This document shows positions 48,288-56,759 of a stretch of 64,000 nucleotides of DNA, one piece after another (positions within the stretch are counted from its first letter, which is position 1; every line of letters begins with the position of its first letter). The notes under the pieces were generated by a model. The model saw nothing but the letters and a program-made list of their open reading frames with translations. It ran no database searches and was not told where the DNA came from. The position numbers and the translations under genes were made by a program. Origin of the DNA: Streptomyces sp. NBC_01465 (GTDB lineage: Bacteria; Actinomycetota; Actinomycetes; Streptomycetales; Streptomycetaceae); NCBI RefSeq assembly GCF_036227325.1, contig NZ_CP109467.1:744001-808000 (forward strand). The letters are read 5' to 3'.

Positions 48288-48710
48288 ATGAGCATCGAAG
48301 AGGGCAACGAGAGGGGCACGCTGCGTCCGCTGTGGGTCGAAGAGCCCGCTGTGCGGCCGAGGTTGCCCGATCCTGTGCGTACGGCAGCGGTGCGCGCCGT
48401 GCTCATCGTGTCGGTGACGACCATCCAGGCGATGGTGGCGTTCCTGTCCACCATCACGGGGTCCTGGCTGGCTTTCCCGATGGTGGTGAGCAGTGTGGTC
48501 AGTACGGTGGTCGCGACCTGGAGCGTGCTGGACGTCTGGGTCACGCGTCAGGTGTGGAACCAGCGCAATGGCGTGATGTCGGTGCCGAGCAGTACGGCGC
48601 GGCGGCTGCGGCGCGAGCGGCGGCAGGCGCGGCGGGTGGCTCGGCAGGAGGCGCGGGACGCCGAGCGGATACGGCGGCGGGGTCCGGTGCGGCTGACGCC
48701 GCAGTCCTGA
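48288..48710 (+). CDS. small membrane protein (140 aa), unknown function
   Basis: The protein has an acidic N-terminus and two membrane helices (about 33-55 AAVRAVLIVSVTTIQAMVAF and 60-85). The C-terminal tail is very arginine-rich (about 105-135). GAGGGG precedes the ATG. The basic tail could bind acidic phospholipid or nucleic acid. It lies between the conservon and the SMC-like ATPase and is convergent with the latter. I do not recognise a named family. Confidence 0.75.
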   Translation: MSIEEGNERGTLRPLWVEEPAVRPRLPDPVRTAAVRAVLIVSVTTIQAMVAFLSTITGSWLAFPMVVSSVVSTVVATWSVLDVWVTRQVWNQRNGVMSVPSSTARRLRRERRQARRVARQEARDAERIRRRGPVRLTPQS

Positions 48711-48743: not shown

Positions 48744-51700
48744 TCAGGCTTCCTGTCCGGCGGCCGCCGGGGCGCGCTTGAACATGCGGGTCGCGGTGAT
48801 CTCGCCGTGCACGACTTCGCCGTCGGGGTCCTGCTGCGGCAGTCCGGGCCGCAGATGCTCCTCCACGCTGATGTACTTCAGCCCGGCCCTGAGGTCGGCG
48901 TCGTTGCGCAACCTGATCACCAGCGGGAACTCCGCGAGCGCCGTGGTGTCGAAGAGGCCGGTGGTGTACAGCAGCTGGACGCCGAGGGCGTCGGAGACCG
49001 CGCGCTGGAGTTCCAGCAGATAGGTGGCGTTGGCGCGGCCGATGGGGTTGTCGAGGAAGAGCGTCCCTGCGTGGCGGTGCTTGTCGCGGCCCCTGTCGTT
49101 GGAGCGCAGGGCGGCCATCGTGCAGTACAGAGCGATAGCCGCGGTGAGCAGCTGACCGCCGGAGAAGACGTCGCCCATCTGACCGACGGGGACCCGCTCG
49201 GCACGCAGCACGGCGTCCGGCTTGAGGATCTCGACCGCGATGCCCTTGGGCTCCAGTGCCGCCTGAACGCCCCGCAGCAGCAAGGACATACCGTCCCTGC
49301 GGAGGTCCGAGTTCTTCTTGAGGGCGGCGCGGGTCGCTTCGTCGATCACTTCGCCGAGGCGTTCGGTGAGCGTCGCCTGGTCCGGCTCCTCGAAGCGGAT
49401 CCGCAGGAACTCCTGGCCGGACCATTCGCCGAGCCCCTCGGGCAGCTGCGAGAGCCGCTGGGCGGAGCGGAGGGTGGTCAGCGCGGACTCCACGAGGCCG
49501 CGCAGCCGGTCGACGATGGAGTCGCGGTTCCGCTCCAGCTGCTCCAGTTCGTCGGTGAGCACGCGCAGCCTGGGTGCGAAGGCCGCCGCCCACTTCTCGG
49601 CGTGCTCGGGCAGCGCGGAGGCGGGGAGTTCGCGGATCTGCTGACGTGCGGGGGTGCGCACCTGCTCGTAGCGGGTGGAGTTGGCGTGCCGTACGAGGAT
49701 GTCGCTCGCCTCGCGGACGGCCGCCTCGGCGGCGGAGAGGTCTCCCGAGCAGCCGCGCAGCGAGCGGCGGGTCTCGGCGGCGGACCCGCGCGCCTCCTCC
49801 AGGCTGCCGGGGTACGGCTCGGGGGCCTCTTCCGACTCGTCCGTCTCGTCGTCGTGACGGTCGCGGAGCAGATCGCGCAGCAGCGCCGCGGTCTCGTCGA
49901 AACCGCCCGCCGCGTCCTCGGAAACACGGTGCGCGTGGAGCAGTTCGGCGTGGGCGGCGCGGGCCGTCTCCAACGCATCGGCGCAGGCGGCCAGTTCGGA
50001 GGTGGCGGTGCGCAGCAGTGCCTGGGCGGCGTCCGCGTCGGCGGGCACCTGCTCCTCGGGGAGCTCGGTGTGCGTGTCCTCCCCGTCGGCGGGGGCAAGG
50101 CGCTCGGCCTCGCCGCGCAGCCGTCCGAGCTGCTCGCTCGCGGTCGAGGCCCTGGTCTCCAGCATCTGGACGAGGGACTCGGCACGGGCCGCGGCCGCCT
50201 GTCGGGACGGGCCGTCGGCGCCGTCGGTGGATTCGAGGAGCTGGGCGGCGCGGGTGCGGACCTTGTTGGTCAGCCGGTCGAGTTCGGCGAGGGCCGCGCT
50301 CTCGTCGCTCTCGGCCCTGGCCTGTTCGGCCCGGAGGTCGGCGCCCACGCCGACCTTCTCGTACAGCTGGGACGCGGCGCGGTACGCCTCGCGCAGGGCG
50401 GGCAGGGCCGTGCGGGGGGCGTCGGGCTCCGGGTCGGGGATGTTCTCGGGCACACCGGCGATCTCGGCGCGCTCCGCGCGCAGGGCGCGTGCGGTGCGGT
50501 GTGCGTCGTCGGCGGTGCGCTGGGCGGCCCGGCGGTCCTCGTCGGCGGCCCTGGCCCGCTCCAGACAGGTGTGGGCGCGGGCCTCCGACTCGGCCGTCTC
50601 GTCGGCGAGTTCGCGGAGTTTCGCCTGCCAGCCGGCGCGCTCCCGCAGCCGGAAGGCGAGTCCGGCCAGGACGTCGGCCACGCGCCGGGCGCGCTGTGCG
50701 GTGTCCTGGCGCTCGTCCCGTACGCGTGCCGCGTCGGCGGCGGCCTCCTCGGTCTCGGCCCGTACCGTACGCGCTTCGGCGAGGACCGCTTCTGCGGCCT
50801 CGGCGGCGTCCCTGGCCGTCCGTGCCGCCCCCGCGAGTTCCGTGAGCATCCCGGGCGGGCAGTCCGCGCGCCAGGAGCCGAGCCGGGCCGCGAGCGTGCG
50901 GTCCCCGGCGAGCCGGGCGGCCAGGTTGCGGATCTCCTCGTCGCGTTCGGCGGTGCGGGACCGCAGCGCCTGGCGCTCCTCGTCGGCTGCGTGCTCGTCG
51001 TGCATGGCCGGGTTCGGTGGTACGAGGAAGACGTCACCGTCGGCGCCGGTGCCCGGCCCCGGGACGGGTGCCAGGAGGGCGGCGGTGGTTCCTACGGCGA
51101 CGGCGGAGCGCGGCAACAGGGCGGCACCGCTGAGGACTTCGCGTGCCCGGACGTGCGCGGCCGGGTCGGTGATCACCACACCGTCGACCAGTTCGGGCCG
51201 GGCGGCGAGGACAGCGGCATGGTCGGCAGGGTCGACTGCCTGCGCGAGATAGCGCCAGCCGGGGAGCGCCGGGATGCCGTGCTCGCCCAGATACTCGACG
51301 GCGGCCAGCACATCGGGTCCGGCCGGCAGGAGCCCGCCGTCGCCGAGCGCGCCCAGGATCCGGGCGTCGTCGGCCGCCGCGGTGCGCAGCTCGAAGAGCT
51401 GGCGCTCGGCGGCCGCCACACCCTGGTCGAGGACTTCCCGCAGCTCGTCGGCGCTGCGGTCCAGCTCTTCGGCGGTGAACGGCGCCTCCGTACGGGCAGC
51501 ACCCGATCCGTCCGGGTCCTGACTCGCTGCGGTGCCGCGTTCGGCGCCGGTGACGCCCGCGCCCCGGCGGGGCCCCGGCAGTCCGGCCGCGGCTGCGGGC
51601 GGGAGGCTGAGCAGTTCGCCAAGACGGGGGTCCGCCGCGATCGACTCCGTCGTACGGCGCTCGGCCTCGTACGCGTTCTCCGCAGCCGTAGCGGCGTCCG

Positions 51701-53441
51701 CGGCACGGGCGGCCGCGAGCTCGGCGCGGTTCTCCTCGCCGGCGGCCTCCTTGGCGTGCTCCCCCGTCGTACGGGCCGCCTCGCGGGCAGCGTCCCAGGC
51801 GGCGACCGCCGACTTCTCCGCATCGCTGGCCGCGAGGGCGGCCCGTGCGGGGTCGGCGTCGGGGGCGGTGTCGTCGAGCCATCCCGCGCGTACCGCCTCG
51901 GCGGTCTCCTGCTCGACCTCGGTGAGCCGCTGGCGCAGATGTCCGGCCTCGCTGCGGGCGCGCTGTGCTTCGGTGGCGGCGGCGGTGGCGTCGCGGTGCG
52001 CGGCCTCGCCCGCCTCCTGGAGTGCGGCGGAGCGCTCCTCATGCTCACCCGCGATGCGCTCGCCGTCCTCGGCGGCGGTGTGCAGGGCCCGTACGAGCTC
52101 GGCGGCTGCCGTGGCGCGTGCGGCCAGCGCCGGTGCCGCGTCCCGCTCGGCCTCGCGGATCGCGACGGCGACCCGGGCGGAGCGGTCTGCGGCCGCGCGG
52201 TGGCGCAGTACGGCCTCGGCGGCCTGCCAGGCGGAGTGCAGCGTACGGGCGTCGGCGAGCTCCTTGCGCTGGGCGGCTGCCGACTTCTCCGCGACGGTCA
52301 GCGCCAACGAGGCGTGCCGGTAGGCGAGTTCGGCGGCGATCAGTGCGCGGCGGCCGCGGACCGACTCGGCCTCGGTGACCGTGTGGGCCGCGGCGGTGAC
52401 CTGCTGGGCGAGGTCGGCGGCGCGCCCTCGTTCCTCGCCGGCCCTGGCCGAGAGCCTGCGGGCGAGGGTGCGCGTACGGCGCTCGGCGCCCGCGTGGATG
52501 TCCCGGGCGCGGGCGCGGGTGGCGGTGGCGTCGACGATCCGGCCGAGCAGGTCGACGGAGCCCGCGGTGAAGTCCCGCTCCGCGGTGAGCTCGGCCCGGC
52601 GGCCGAGCTTGTTGCCGAAGCCGCCGACCAGGTCGGCGAGACCGTCGGTGTCCCGTGTGTCCGTGACGGCGCGCAGCAGCAGGTCGGTGAAGTCGGAGTC
52701 CTTCTTCACCGCGAAGAGGCCGGCCGCCTCGCCCTCGTCGGCGTTCATCTCCCGCTGGTAGCGGAAGAGTTCGGGGTCGAGGCCGAGATCGCCGAGGTGT
52801 TCGTTCCAGCGGTCGTGGATCTCTTCCCAGTGCACGTCCAGGTGCGGGTACGCCTTGCCGGACTCGGTGATCGCGTCGCGGAACCCCTTCATGGTGCGGC
52901 GCCGCCCGCGCGCACCCGAGGCGCCCTCCACCGGGGGCCGTACGGCGGTGGATTCGGCGACCGGCAGCGAGTCGAGGCTGAGGCCGGGCCCGGGGCGGAA
53001 GGAGTACCAGCCCTCGGCGAACTTCCGGGGGTCGTTGGAGACCTGCCGTCCGCGCCACTCGCTCGCCTTGCCGACGACGACCGTTTCACCGGTGATCGTG
53101 TGCTGCCACTCCAGCGCGACGTGCCCGCAGTCGTCGGCGAGCAGGAATTTGCGCAGGACGCCGGAGCTGGCGCCGCCGAGAGTGTTGCGGTGGCCGGGCA
53201 GCATCACGGAGAAGATCAGCTTCAGCAGGACGGACTTGCCGCCGCCGTTCTCGAGGAAGAGCACCCCGGCCGGGGCGGGCCGGCGCGGCGGACCGACCGG
53301 CTCGTCGGCGAAGAACTCCGCCTGCGCCGGCGCCGGGTGGGGCACGGGCGCGCCCACTCCACGCAGGTCGAGGACGGTGTCGGCGTAGCGCGCACCGGCA
53401 GGACCGATGGAGTAGAGACGGACCCGGGACAGCTCGTACAT
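48744..53441 (-). CDS. SMC/MukB-like ATPase (condensin or Wadjet JetC-like)
   Basis: The 1565-residue protein has an SMC-like layout. Near the N-terminus is Walker A FLENGGGKSVLL (64-70), where the usual first glycine is Leu. Two long alanine/glutamate/arginine-rich coiled-coil segments follow. A globular middle region lies at about 700-860 (YLGEHGIPALPGWRYLA and DGVVITDPAAHVRAREVL), in hinge position. At the C-terminus are the ABC signature FSGGQ (1426-1430) and Walker B TLFLDNPIGRAN, with D1464 followed by Asn where most SMC proteins have the catalytic Glu. It is too long and too divergent for chromosomal Smc. It is the last gene of a three-gene operon with the 319- and 511-aa proteins. Confidence 0.85.
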   Translation of the reverse strand: MYELSRVRLYSIGPAGARYADTVLDLRGVGAPVPHPAPAQAEFFADEPVGPPRRPAPAGVLFLENGGGKSVLLKLIFSVMLPGHRNTLGGASSGVLRKFLLADDCGHVALEWQHTITGETVVVGKASEWRGRQVSNDPRKFAEGWYSFRPGPGLSLDSLPVAESTAVRPPVEGASGARGRRRTMKGFRDAITESGKAYPHLDVHWEEIHDRWNEHLGDLGLDPELFRYQREMNADEGEAAGLFAVKKDSDFTDLLLRAVTDTRDTDGLADLVGGFGNKLGRRAELTAERDFTAGSVDLLGRIVDATATRARARDIHAGAERRTRTLARRLSARAGEERGRAADLAQQVTAAAHTVTEAESVRGRRALIAAELAYRHASLALTVAEKSAAAQRKELADARTLHSAWQAAEAVLRHRAAADRSARVAVAIREAERDAAPALAARATAAAELVRALHTAAEDGERIAGEHEERSAALQEAGEAAHRDATAAATEAQRARSEAGHLRQRLTEVEQETAEAVRAGWLDDTAPDADPARAALAASDAEKSAVAAWDAAREAARTTGEHAKEAAGEENRAELAAARAADAATAAENAYEAERRTTESIAADPRLGELLSLPPAAAAGLPGPRRGAGVTGAERGTAASQDPDGSGAARTEAPFTAEELDRSADELREVLDQGVAAAERQLFELRTAAADDARILGALGDGGLLPAGPDVLAAVEYLGEHGIPALPGWRYLAQAVDPADHAAVLAARPELVDGVVITDPAAHVRAREVLSGAALLPRSAVAVGTTAALLAPVPGPGTGADGDVFLVPPNPAMHDEHAADEERQALRSRTAERDEEIRNLAARLAGDRTLAARLGSWRADCPPGMLTELAGAARTARDAAEAAEAVLAEARTVRAETEEAAADAARVRDERQDTAQRARRVADVLAGLAFRLRERAGWQAKLRELADETAESEARAHTCLERARAADEDRRAAQRTADDAHRTARALRAERAEIAGVPENIPDPEPDAPRTALPALREAYRAASQLYEKVGVGADLRAEQARAESDESAALAELDRLTNKVRTRAAQLLESTDGADGPSRQAAAARAESLVQMLETRASTASEQLGRLRGEAERLAPADGEDTHTELPEEQVPADADAAQALLRTATSELAACADALETARAAHAELLHAHRVSEDAAGGFDETAALLRDLLRDRHDDETDESEEAPEPYPGSLEEARGSAAETRRSLRGCSGDLSAAEAAVREASDILVRHANSTRYEQVRTPARQQIRELPASALPEHAEKWAAAFAPRLRVLTDELEQLERNRDSIVDRLRGLVESALTTLRSAQRLSQLPEGLGEWSGQEFLRIRFEEPDQATLTERLGEVIDEATRAALKKNSDLRRDGMSLLLRGVQAALEPKGIAVEILKPDAVLRAERVPVGQMGDVFSGGQLLTAAIALYCTMAALRSNDRGRDKHRHAGTLFLDNPIGRANATYLLELQRAVSDALGVQLLYTTGLFDTTALAEFPLVIRLRNDADLRAGLKYISVEEHLRPGLPQQDPDGEVVHGEITATRMFKRAPAAAGQEA

Positions 53442-53472
53442 GGCGGCGGACTCTCGTCGTTCTCGGCAGCGG

Positions 53473-54432
53473 TCAGGAGTGGAAGGGCAGGCCGGCGTCG
53501 GCGGCCAGCTCGAGGTCTTCGGGGTCGGTCGGCATCACCAGCGTGGCGGTGCCGTCGGTCACCGGGACGACGCCCAGTTCGAGGAGCTCGGCCATGGCGG
53601 CGGTGCCGGCCATGTCGCGGACCTGGAGCTGGTAACGGGCGGTGGTTCTGTACGCGCCCCCGGCGTCGTCCCCGGTGCGCTGGAGGAAGCCGGAGTCGGT
53701 GAGGAAGGCGACGGCCTTGCCGACGATGCCGGTGGTGGATCCGGCGAGGCGCCGCGCGTCCTTGGTGGCGCCGGTGGAGCTGCGCCGGGCGTAGATCCGC
53801 CAGGCCGCTTCGAGACCGGGGGCCTCGCTGGCCGGGTCGGTGTTCTCGCCGAGTTCCTCGGCCCGCTCCTCCAGCCGCCGGCAGGCCTGGCGTACGAACG
53901 CGTCGACTCCGTTGACGGTGATGCGTCCGATGTAGCCGTCGTCGGCGAGGTCCTCGGGGCGCGGGAAGGCCATGGCGGCGACCGCCAGATGCGCGAGTCC
54001 GTGCAGGAAGCGGTCGGCGGAGTCCGCGGCCGTACGCCGGGCGTAGTCGCCCATCCGTACGGCGAAGACCGAGTCCTCGCCCGCTGTCACGGCCATTCCC
54101 GCCCGGGTCGAGACCTCCAGGACGACCAGGCCGAGCCCGGCGGCGACCGCGTCGGCGAGCCGCGCGAAGGCGGACTCCTCGCGGTACCTGCGGAGCAGTT
54201 CCGCGTAGTCGGCGTCGCGTGCGGGCATCAGCTTGGGCTGCAGCCCGAAGGCGACGAGCCGTGCGGCGTCGGCGGCGTCGGCCGGTGTCACGGCGGCGGG
54301 CGACGCGGGAGTCCGGTCGGCCTCCACCGTGTCCGCGGCGGCCGCCTCGCTCCACGCGGTGTGCTCGGCGTGGGTCTCGCTCACGGCTTCGGCTCCTCGG
54401 TCATGTCGGTCGTTTCCGTACGCGGTGCTCAT
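53473..54432 (-). CDS. SMC-operon accessory protein (MukE/JetB-like by position)
   Basis: The 319-residue protein has a disordered N-terminal tail of about 60 residues, then helices (LRRYREESAFARLADAVAAG), a middle domain with ITVNGVDAFVRQACRRLEER, and a C-terminal winged-helix-like segment GIVGKAVAFLTDSGFLQRTG followed by YRTTARYQLQVRDM. Size, position between a helical kleisin-like gene and the SMC-like gene, and possible winged helix fit MukE/MksE/JetB, but I see no specific signature. The ATG at 54432 overlaps the upstream stop (ATGA). Confidence 0.75.
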   Translation of the reverse strand: MSTAYGNDRHDRGAEAVSETHAEHTAWSEAAAADTVEADRTPASPAAVTPADAADAARLVAFGLQPKLMPARDADYAELLRRYREESAFARLADAVAAGLGLVVLEVSTRAGMAVTAGEDSVFAVRMGDYARRTAADSADRFLHGLAHLAVAAMAFPRPEDLADDGYIGRITVNGVDAFVRQACRRLEERAEELGENTDPASEAPGLEAAWRIYARRSSTGATKDARRLAGSTTGIVGKAVAFLTDSGFLQRTGDDAGGAYRTTARYQLQVRDMAGTAAMAELLELGVVPVTDGTATLVMPTDPEDLELAADAGLPFHS

Positions 54433-55964
54433 GCGGCCTCGTTCCGGCCGGCGGCCATCGAGGCCGTGTCGAGGAGCGCCGTCCCCACGATCAGGTCGGC
54501 GCCGCCGAACTCGGGGTCGTCGAGCTCGGTCCCGTCGTCCACGGCGAACAGCAGCCGCTGCTCTCCCTGCCGGTAGGCGGTGCCGACCGGCGGGCTGGCC
54601 GCGTGAACCGCCAGCAGGGCGACCAGATACGGCAGTTCGGGATCGCGCCGGCGTGCCTCGGCGAGCAGTCCGGAGAGTCTGCGGGGCGCGTCGTGCTCCA
54701 GGTCGAGCAGTTCCATGGCGCTCGCCAGCTGCTCCTCGCTGAAGCGGCTGTCGTCGGGCGTGGCGATCAGATCGGGCTCGGGCATCTCGGCGCCCAGGTG
54801 TTCGCGCTCCGTCGGCGGGGTCAGCAGTATGTCGACGAGGTCCCCCATGCGTACGGACACGGGCGTGCGCAGCCCGGTGCCGCGCGCGAAGAACGCGTCC
54901 GTGACCCGGCGGGCCTGCTCCACCGGCAGGGGCAGCAGGGGGGCCACGAGCTGTCCGTACAGATCGAGGCCCGCGGTCGTGGTGGGTGCCGCGAAGGCCT
55001 GCCGGTCCTGCTCGGCGCGGAAGAGCGGGCCCGCTTCGAGGAGCCGGGACTGCAACTGCGTATGGCGGCGGATGCAGTCCTTGACGATGTCGACGAGCTC
55101 GGCCGCCCGCCGCTTGTGCTCTTGGTCCTCGGCCTCGTCGCGCGCCTTGCGGATGTTGGTGAGGATCGCGTTCTCGTGGCGGTAGCGGTCGGCGACGTGG
55201 TCGAGCGCCTCGGCGATCATGTCGGGCACGGCGTTGAGCCAGTCGACGGCCCGCACATTGCGCCGGGTCGCCTCCAGGGTCCTGCGCAGCGTCTCCGCGT
55301 ACTGCACGGTGCGGTATCTGGCCTGCTCGGCGGCGAGCTGGGCATCGGCGAGCCGCCCCCGGCTGATCAGCACTTCGAGCTTGACCTCGGCGGCGATCTG
55401 GGCGCTGGTCACATCGGTGTCGAGCGCGCCGACCAGGACGTTGACGGCCTCGTCCGTGGTGCGCAGATAGACGCTGCCGCCGTACCCGGGCACCTCCTCG
55501 ACGAGCTTGAAGTCGTAATCGCGCCGGGTGTACGCACCGTCGGACCCGAACGTCCCGTAGACCGCGCGGAAGCCCCGGTCGACGCTCCCCACGTTGATCA
55601 GGTTCTCCAGCACCCAGCGGGCCACCCGCTCGTGCTCGGATGCGGGGCGCCGCGGGGCCTGGGCCGCGACGCGCGGCAGCAGCCTGGCGATTATCTGGTC
55701 GTGGTCGGCTCCGGTGTCGAAGTCCATGTTGAGCGTGACCAGGTCGATGGCGGCGAGCGCGATCTCCGCCATGGCGTAGACCGTGTACTCCCCGGCCAGA
55801 TTGGCCTTGCGTACGTCGAGGTCGTGCAGCGGTGCGGTGCACGCGAGCGCACGAAGGCGCCGCGCGAGCCCTTCGTCGGCGGCCGGGCCCTGTGCGGGCC
55901 GCGGCCCCGCGCTGAGCTGGGGCGGAACGAATTCCGTCGAGGCGGTCGAGGCTGGCGATGTCAC
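54429..55964 (-). CDS. SMC-operon accessory protein (MukF/JetA kleisin-like by position)
   Basis: The 511-residue soluble protein is mostly helical, with a predicted-looking coiled segment around NILTNIRKAR-type sequence (RYRHENAILTNIRKARDEAE) and VDIVKDCIRRHTQLQSRLL. The N-terminal domain shows YTVYAMAEIALAAIDLVTLN. Length and first position in an operon ending in an SMC-like ATPase suggest a kleisin of the MukF/MksF/JetA group. Start GTG 55964 is inferred because a -10-like TAATCT lies 7 nt before it (leaderless); GTG 55988 and TTG 55994 are alternatives. No Shine-Dalgarno is present. Confidence 0.72.
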   Translation of the reverse strand: MTSPASTASTEFVPPQLSAGPRPAQGPAADEGLARRLRALACTAPLHDLDVRKANLAGEYTVYAMAEIALAAIDLVTLNMDFDTGADHDQIIARLLPRVAAQAPRRPASEHERVARWVLENLINVGSVDRGFRAVYGTFGSDGAYTRRDYDFKLVEEVPGYGGSVYLRTTDEAVNVLVGALDTDVTSAQIAAEVKLEVLISRGRLADAQLAAEQARYRTVQYAETLRRTLEATRRNVRAVDWLNAVPDMIAEALDHVADRYRHENAILTNIRKARDEAEDQEHKRRAAELVDIVKDCIRRHTQLQSRLLEAGPLFRAEQDRQAFAAPTTTAGLDLYGQLVAPLLPLPVEQARRVTDAFFARGTGLRTPVSVRMGDLVDILLTPPTEREHLGAEMPEPDLIATPDDSRFSEEQLASAMELLDLEHDAPRRLSGLLAEARRRDPELPYLVALLAVHAASPPVGTAYRQGEQRLLFAVDDGTELDDPEFGGADLIVGTALLDTASMAAGRNEAA

Positions 55965-56111: not shown

Positions 56112-56759
56112 ATGGCGAACACCGCACAGCGCACCGCCGACCTGCTGCGTGAGCGCATCACGCAGGGCGCGCTGACGCCCGGGACGCGGCTCTCGGAGGA
56201 GGCACTCGGTGTGGCGATGGGCGTCTCGCGCAACACGCTGCGCGAGGCCTTCCGGCTGCTCGCCCACGGACGGCTGGTCGAGCACGAGCCGAATCGCGGG
56301 GTTTTCGTCCGCAGGCCGAGCGCGGCCGACATCGCGGACATCTATGCCGTACGGACCGCCTTGGAGACGGCGGGTGTACGGGCCCTGGCGGCGGCCCCCG
56401 CCGGACACCTGCGCGCCGTCACCGACGCCGTCGCCGACGCCGAGGCGTGCGCGGAGATCGCCGACTGGGCCGGTGCCGGCACCGCCGACCTCCGCTTCCA
56501 CCAGGCGCTGGGCGCGCTGTCGTGCAGTCCGCGCATCGACACGTACCTCGCCGGGCTGCTCGCGGAACTGCGCCTGGCCTTCGTCACCATGCCGTCGCAG
56601 CAGCTCCTCCACGAGCCTTTCCTGCACCGCAACCGGACCATCGCCGACCTCCTGACGGCAGGGCGCACGGCCGATGCGGAGGACGAACTGCACCGCTACC
56701 TCCAGGACGCCTGCCGGACCGTCCTCGGCACACTCCAGCTCCAGGAAGGGCCGCGATGA
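56112..56759 (+). CDS. GntR-family (FadR/FCD) transcriptional regulator
   Basis: The 215-residue protein has a winged helix at about 8-75 (LLRERITQGALTPGTRLSEE and VSRNTLREAFRLLAHGRLVE) and a C-terminal FCD helical effector domain (about 80-200). It probably senses 5-oxoproline or a related metabolite, since the next three genes encode 5-oxoprolinase. GGAG precedes the ATG. Its stop overlaps pxpA by four bases, so the repressor and enzyme genes are co-translated. Confidence 0.9.
   Translation: MANTAQRTADLLRERITQGALTPGTRLSEEALGVAMGVSRNTLREAFRLLAHGRLVEHEPNRGVFVRRPSAADIADIYAVRTALETAGVRALAAAPAGHLRAVTDAVADAEACAEIADWAGAGTADLRFHQALGALSCSPRIDTYLAGLLAELRLAFVTMPSQQLLHEPFLHRNRTIADLLTAGRTADAEDELHRYLQDACRTVLGTLQLQEGPR

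Follow-up and report, generated by a model that had tools for sequence, protein, structure and literature searches.

The 64,000-nucleotide stretch of Streptomyces sp. NBC_01465 analysed here (contig NZ_CP109467.1, positions 744,001-808,000; hereafter the window, in which all positions are counted) carries, on its minus strand, a three-gene operon for a kleisin, a KITE protein and a large SMC ATPase (Table 1). A sequence-only reading of this DNA had described kleisin-like, MukE/JetB-like and SMC-like frames in overlapping order, and had considered two origins for them: a chromosomal condensin, or a relative of the Wadjet defence systems without its nuclease. The three frames are present with the lengths then given. 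The overlap holds for the kleisin and KITE genes, whereas the KITE and SMC genes are separated by a gap of 31 bp (53442-53472). All three frames are scored as coding by the open reading frame (ORF) caller, and the A-B-C order is the same in related loci.

Table 1. The operon and its nearest neighbours in the window
Feature	Position	Strand	Remarks
JetA3-type kleisin, 511 aa	54429..55964	-	First gene of the operon; GTG start
JetB/MukE-type KITE protein, 319 aa	53473..54432	-	Overlaps the kleisin gene by 4 bp (54429-54432)
JetC3-type SMC ATPase, 1565 aa	48744..53441	-	Last gene of the operon; matches JetC3 (PDLC00588), motifs aligned with relatives
Small two-helix basic protein	48390..48710	+	Convergent with the SMC gene; bounds from the ORF caller
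GntR-type regulator	56112..56759		

By sequence and fold, the operon is a type III Wadjet JetABC. The kleisin matches the PADLOC model of JetA3 with 623 bits, and the SMC protein matches that of JetC3 with an E-value of 0 and 1404 bits; the window proteins match type III models only, and no model of type I or II. The SMC protein has the Walker A motif ENGGGKS, the signature SGGQ and the Walker B motif LFLDN. In structure comparison, the model of the KITE protein resembles MukE and JetB, and that of the kleisin finds its best match, with modest confidence, in MukF. Homologues of JetA, JetB and JetC are found together in one operon, and the Toprim nuclease JetD of type III is missing. A kleisin-KITE-SMC operon without a nuclease is likewise the make-up of a complex of the MksBEF type.

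Other families of SMC proteins were also considered. None of the three proteins is named above the cut-off by Pfam or NCBIfam. The SMC protein matches no Pfam family at E≤1, the SMC hinge (PF06470) included, the kleisin has no match to ScpA (PF02616), and membership of Smc-ScpAB was rejected on these grounds. The genome's matches to ScpA and to the canonical SMC hinge fall outside the operon, in agreement with the earlier statement that Smc-ScpAB is encoded elsewhere. A repair ATPase of the Rad50, SbcC or RecN type was rejected as well, since kleisin-like and KITE-like partners are present and the SMC protein does not match PF13558, the SbcC-type Walker B family, which matches two other places in the genome (one above and one below the cut-off). 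The sequence-only reading had named small proteins of unrelated fold, or a RecN/Rad50-type ATPase, as the results that would overturn it. The comparisons made here, which cover a part of that test, found neither. Searching solved structures by sequence, either with the SMC protein alone or with the three alignments, returned only noise.

The absence of the nuclease extends well beyond this one locus. No JetD adjoins the operon on either side, just as had been noted, and the 9.14-Mb genome is negative both with JetD_C (PF09983), even at E≤10, and with the PADLOC model JetD3 (PDLC00594) at E≤0.001; JetD_C matched two of 14 control genomes. As a control of the method, a gene of about 340 aa adjoining JetC matched JetD3 at 200-409 bits in all five divergent relatives tested. 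Among the core loci, that is, those of the window's kind, 67 of the 80 named Streptomyces ones run to the end of the SMC gene and 1.2 kb or more past it. Past the SMC gene, 4-7 kb can be read in all 22 other Streptomycetaceae loci (12 from other genera and ten from further Streptomyces) and at least 1.4 kb in ten of the 13 Frankiaceae loci, which represent 13 of the 19 genomes with a strong match. No JetD match above 30 bits was found in any of these core loci with enough flank. A search of the 80 named loci as one pool, with six JetD queries that include a fragment of 191 aa, returned nothing at E≤0.01. When the search was made locus by locus, which lowers the E-values, seven core loci (L093, L098, L112, L139, L197, L207 and L243) each gave one short match of 37-95 residues, with 27-30 bits and E of 0.001-0.009. 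Four of them belong to the 80 named loci, two to the 12 from other genera, one to the 13 Frankiaceae loci and none to the ten further Streptomyces loci. These matches are scattered in position and query and fall far under the at least 106 bits of true JetD loci, and they were rejected as JetD.

The operon is near-universal in its family. The window kleisin finds a match in 147 of 150 sampled Streptomyces genomes, a strong one in 146 of them (E<1e-170; listed identities 82-100%). The match of G409 is weak, and among the three genomes without any (G344, G365 and G371), two are only 82% and 78% complete and the other is in 1140 contigs. Across the Streptomycetaceae, 120 of 121 genomes match, 119 of them at 76% identity or more, in 16 of 17 genera; the exceptions are G445, whose match of 25% identity belongs to a JetD-bearing system (L196), and G503, of another genus, which has none. 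In a class-wide sample, the 43 matching genomes out of 296 comprise 28 Streptomyces and 15 Frankiaceae (60-64% identity). A Frankia kleisin used as query finds a strong match in 19 of 35 Frankiaceae genomes, which indicates a patchy presence there. The JetA3 model, run against 296 genomes sampled across the phylum, matches 13, of which nine are Streptomyces, the window's own included. A plasmid origin is unsupported, as the kleisin matches four of 72,556 plasmid records, all below 60% identity.

This distribution bears on the proposal that the complex leaves plasmids or other extrachromosomal DNA uncut but compacts or silences small circles, or limits their copy number. Such a role would suit a motor and partner subunits that are intact without the nuclease. 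There is also a parallel in Smc5/6, for which a compaction-type silencing, proposed to act against viral DNA, is described (PMC10586767). According to the same source, however, all four Wadjet subunits are required to suppress plasmid transformation in B. subtilis, and a plasmid role alone leaves the near-universal retention in the family unexplained. It is, hence, regarded as quite unlikely.

Intact systems do occur in the same genus. A second, divergent JetA is present in 11 of the 150 Streptomyces genomes, and these are exactly the genomes with a strong JetD3 (E of 9.6e-50 or better). The second-copy loci have the order A-B-C-D in 12 of 12 cases (the JetD frame of L047 is partly called, and the JetC frame of L172 is split), and all 12 match JetD at 106-642 bits with queries from other loci. 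JetD is also found in nine of ten other divergent loci, the tenth of which stops at a contig edge. It had been suggested earlier that Streptomyces genomes be checked for synteny and for a separate JetD; the gene order is kept, and 139 of the 150 have no strong JetD3. Weak JetD3 matches (E of 2e-7 to 8e-4, frames of 394-533 aa) occur in ten other Streptomyces genomes. Three of the ten were read and were rejected as partners of the core operon: those of G307 and G343 lie in five-gene clusters of another kind, and G424 has no called JetD. Among 34 genomes searched individually, JetD3 is strong in four (G474, G529, G753 and G761), all with a second JetA, and four more have weak matches only. The Frankia genome G691 has only one JetA and, on a different contig, a partial JetD3 (model positions 9-178).

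The presence of both copies in those 11 genomes raises the idea that the core JetABC uses, in trans, the JetD of the mobile second copies. Against this, 135 of the 146 genomes with a core copy have no strong JetD3. Moreover, the second-copy kleisins, which are only about 25-53% identical, come with a JetABC of their own. Borrowing is thus very improbable.

The remaining genes have been kept under purifying selection. The motifs ENGGGKS, SGGQ and LFLDNPIGRAN are identical in the aligned core SMC proteins, in ten of which all three can be read. The ratio of nonsynonymous to synonymous substitution rates (dN/dS, Nei-Gojobori) against four relatives is 0.07-0.16 for JetA, 0.15-0.20 for JetB and 0.14-0.20 for JetC. 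In three JetD-bearing pairs, the corresponding values are 0.17-0.21, 0.20-0.23 and 0.27-0.37, and for four genes of the neighbourhood, set against those of a single relative, the ratio is 0.18-0.45. Alignment columns that are conserved among 13-14 relatives with JetD mostly have an unchanged residue in the Streptomycetaceae copies: 75 of 77 in JetA, 48 of 52 in JetB and 145 of 159 in JetC (proteins shorter than 400, 220 and 1300 aa, respectively, were left out). Because motifs, selection and conserved columns are all retained, the machine is considered complete except for the nuclease. A decaying remnant without function could be imagined from the absence of the nuclease, but the low dN/dS, the intact motifs and a gene order kept in nearly all sampled genomes already disfavour it, to the point that it is barely credible.

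A trace of the lost partner was sought on the proteins themselves. Columns that are conserved in the presence of JetD but altered in both groups without it number none in JetA, one in JetB and three in JetC; these are hydrophobic swaps, and no JetD docking site was identified among them. Type III JetC has an asparagine at the position of the Walker B glutamate of MukB (LFLDN against LFLDE) in all 120 loci in which the motif was found; the pattern asks for D-x-P-x-G, and 21 further JetC loci gave no match to it. The asparagine was rejected as a mark of the JetD-less copies, as 20 of the 120 loci with it are JetD-bearing. It does raise the question of how ATP is hydrolysed by this class of SMC protein.

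The history of the loss was approached through trees. In the JetA tree (70 rows; ORFs under 331 aa left out), the JetD-less Streptomycetaceae and Frankiaceae lie on one side of a branch with a support of 87 by the Shimodaira-Hasegawa-like approximate likelihood ratio test (SH-aLRT), a quick method. The same split appears in the JetA+JetB tree (45 rows) with 86/60, which the program grades as neither shown nor rejected, and in the JetC tree (30 rows, a simpler model and many rows of odd composition) with 85/82. Shorter or missing genes were left out of these two trees, as they were from the column comparison. The Streptomycetaceae alone and the Frankiaceae alone are supported at 98-100. Rows outside the JetD-less group are JetD-bearing or of unknown JetD state; L052, L055 and L190 were entered as unknown, their contigs or frames being broken, and the kleisin of L193 is represented in the JetA tree by its longer piece only. 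The JetD-less copies, therefore, group with moderate support beside JetD-bearing relatives, from which an old loss of JetD is likely. One ancient loss followed mainly by descent would be the simplest account, and two losses, or a transfer between Streptomycetaceae and Frankiaceae, would also be compatible with the trees.

Taken as a whole, the evidence inclines us, if only slightly, towards a disarmed type III Wadjet that has been retained, next to Smc-ScpAB, as a second SMC complex of the chromosome. The two earlier readings, condensin and Wadjet relative without its nuclease, would then be joined in one. The operon would descend from a type III Wadjet that lost its JetD early, in the ancestor of the Streptomycetaceae or before, as the trees and the JetD-bearing relatives suggest. 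What remains would be the motor, which presumably loads on DNA and, like JetABC and MukBEF, uses ATP to extrude loops. Without JetD to fire on stalled extrusion, the complex would work on the chromosome as a second condensin. Most plausibly, it would help to fold, resolve or segregate the numerous genome copies that hyphae contain during growth and sporulation. The chromosome is judged the most likely place of action because the operon has an MksBEF-like pattern and is nearly fixed in a mycelial family. The wider statement, that nearly all Streptomycetaceae hold a second, unstudied condensin of this kind, disarmed in their common ancestor, partly redundant with Smc-ScpAB and serving multi-genome hyphae and spores, is given an even chance. 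If it is true, this would be another immune SMC system converted to chromosome handling, and its Wadjet branch would differ from the one that gave rise to MksBEF, which we take to be distinct from type III.

Some observations would also fit a complex that still serves in defence, with JetABC as the sensor of circular or foreign DNA and, as the effector that it calls, an unrelated or unlinked nuclease from elsewhere in the genome. The operon belongs to a known defence family, and a partner working in trans would be in keeping with the near-perfect retention of the columns that JetD-bearing relatives conserve. The location agrees too: the operon is within 20% of one end in 27 of the 33 Streptomyces assemblies that consist of a single contig (with rounded sizes and with assembly starts accepted as given), and a survey of actinobacterial defence reports that Wadjet systems of Streptomyces tend to lie towards the ends of the chromosome (PMC10482375). 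On the other hand, the negative JetD3 searches of the window's genome and of most other Streptomyces speak against this reading, and near-universal conservation is unlike that of sporadic defence systems. A linked replacement is also unlikely, because the only neighbour common to the 22 Streptomycetaceae and 13 Frankiaceae loci is one ORF pair, from one locus each, with 30% identity over 120 residues. This pair was judged a chance kinship of a common enzyme type and not a shared fourth gene. Continued defence through such an effector is on balance unlikely.

Several known systems can be compared with the operon. With type III Wadjet it shares the JetA3 and JetC3 matches, the gene order and the unusual Walker B LDN, and it differs by the absence of JetD and by a distribution that is near-universal in a family and not sporadic. 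In Wadjet, JetABC is described as the sensor and proposed loop extruder, and JetD as the cutter (PMC10586767). MksBEFG of Corynebacterium and EptABCD of Mycobacterium are likewise Wadjet-type operons of actinobacteria, but they include the nuclease, MksG/JetD, and their target is plasmids (PMC10123090, PMC10586767). MksBEF of P. aeruginosa likely arose from JetABCD by loss of JetD and contributes to chromosome organisation and segregation (PMC10586767). The window operon has the same three kinds of gene without a nuclease, but among the PADLOC models its proteins match those of type III only. With E. coli MukBEF, it has in common the gene order and the folds of the two small proteins, but no convincing sequence match: hhalign gave probabilities of 0.4 for MukF, 0.6 for MukE and 21 for MukB (over the Walker A stretch only), with sensitivity limited by single-sequence targets. 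Furthermore, MukBEF has apparently replaced Smc-ScpAB in its hosts (PMC10586767), whereas the window's genome keeps ScpA and SMC.

In the open-access literature on Wadjet, MksB, MukB, JetD or condensin with Streptomyces or Frankia, as far as it was accessible, neither an account of this operon nor a chromosome-organisation phenotype for it was found; most subscription journals and all bioRxiv preprints lay outside this scope. The work on chromosome folding in Streptomyces, in the portions available, names Smc-ScpAB as the condensin (PMC13121528, PMC8410768, PMC8410849). It is also known that smc mutants are viable, and in S. coelicolor even the smc parB double mutant (PMC4255302). Redundancy could lie behind this viability if a second SMC complex is near-universal, and a double mutant would then be needed alongside the Hi-C maps of smc mutants. 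Those 11 genomes that have an armed and a disarmed copy provide a natural comparison for the interconversion of immune and chromosomal SMC motors.

The surroundings of the operon are conserved within Streptomyces. The neighbours named by the sequence-only reading, a small membrane protein and gntR-pxp genes, were recovered as the two-helix protein on the opposite strand and gntR-pxpABC. On the latter flank, a GntR-type regulator is found in 66 of the 80 named loci and pxpABC in 62-64. The window's regulator is divergent from the operon, that of 65 of the 66 relatives with one runs in the same direction as it, and the window's copy is 48-54% identical to those of five relatives compared. On the other flank, where the sequence often ends first, the two-helix protein occurs in 44 of 80 loci and a kinase with NIT, HATPase_c and roadblock Pfam domains in 43; we assume this kinase to be of the 'conservon' type. 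The two-helix protein has no Pfam or PADLOC match and no counterpart at the 13 Frankiaceae loci. It is a conserved Streptomycetaceae neighbour and is not thought to be a part of the complex. The Frankiaceae loci have different neighbours, TerD among them.

A few further arrangements were observed among the loci read. The five-gene clusters of G307 and G343 (L178:909-7763 and L180:2267-9108) are possibly an undescribed Wadjet-like arrangement in Streptomyces; L178 encodes a 472-aa JetD_C protein, a 1023-aa protein weakly like JetC3 and three genes without a family match. G380 has two JetABCD copies (L176 and L177), one near each end of a single chromosome assembly at a distance of about 9-17 kb, a placement that resembles terminal inverted repeats. 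Their JetA, JetB and JetC are identical, and one JetD is called shorter (389 against 286 aa). In L193 (G533), a second copy with JetD, two ORFs that resemble an insertion sequence by their first residues split the kleisin gene. Lastly, the second-copy JetABCD of L049 (G378) and L050 (G425) adjoins genes of 440 aa and 1059/1060 aa, which, by their first residues, we take to be look-alikes of SbcD and SbcC.

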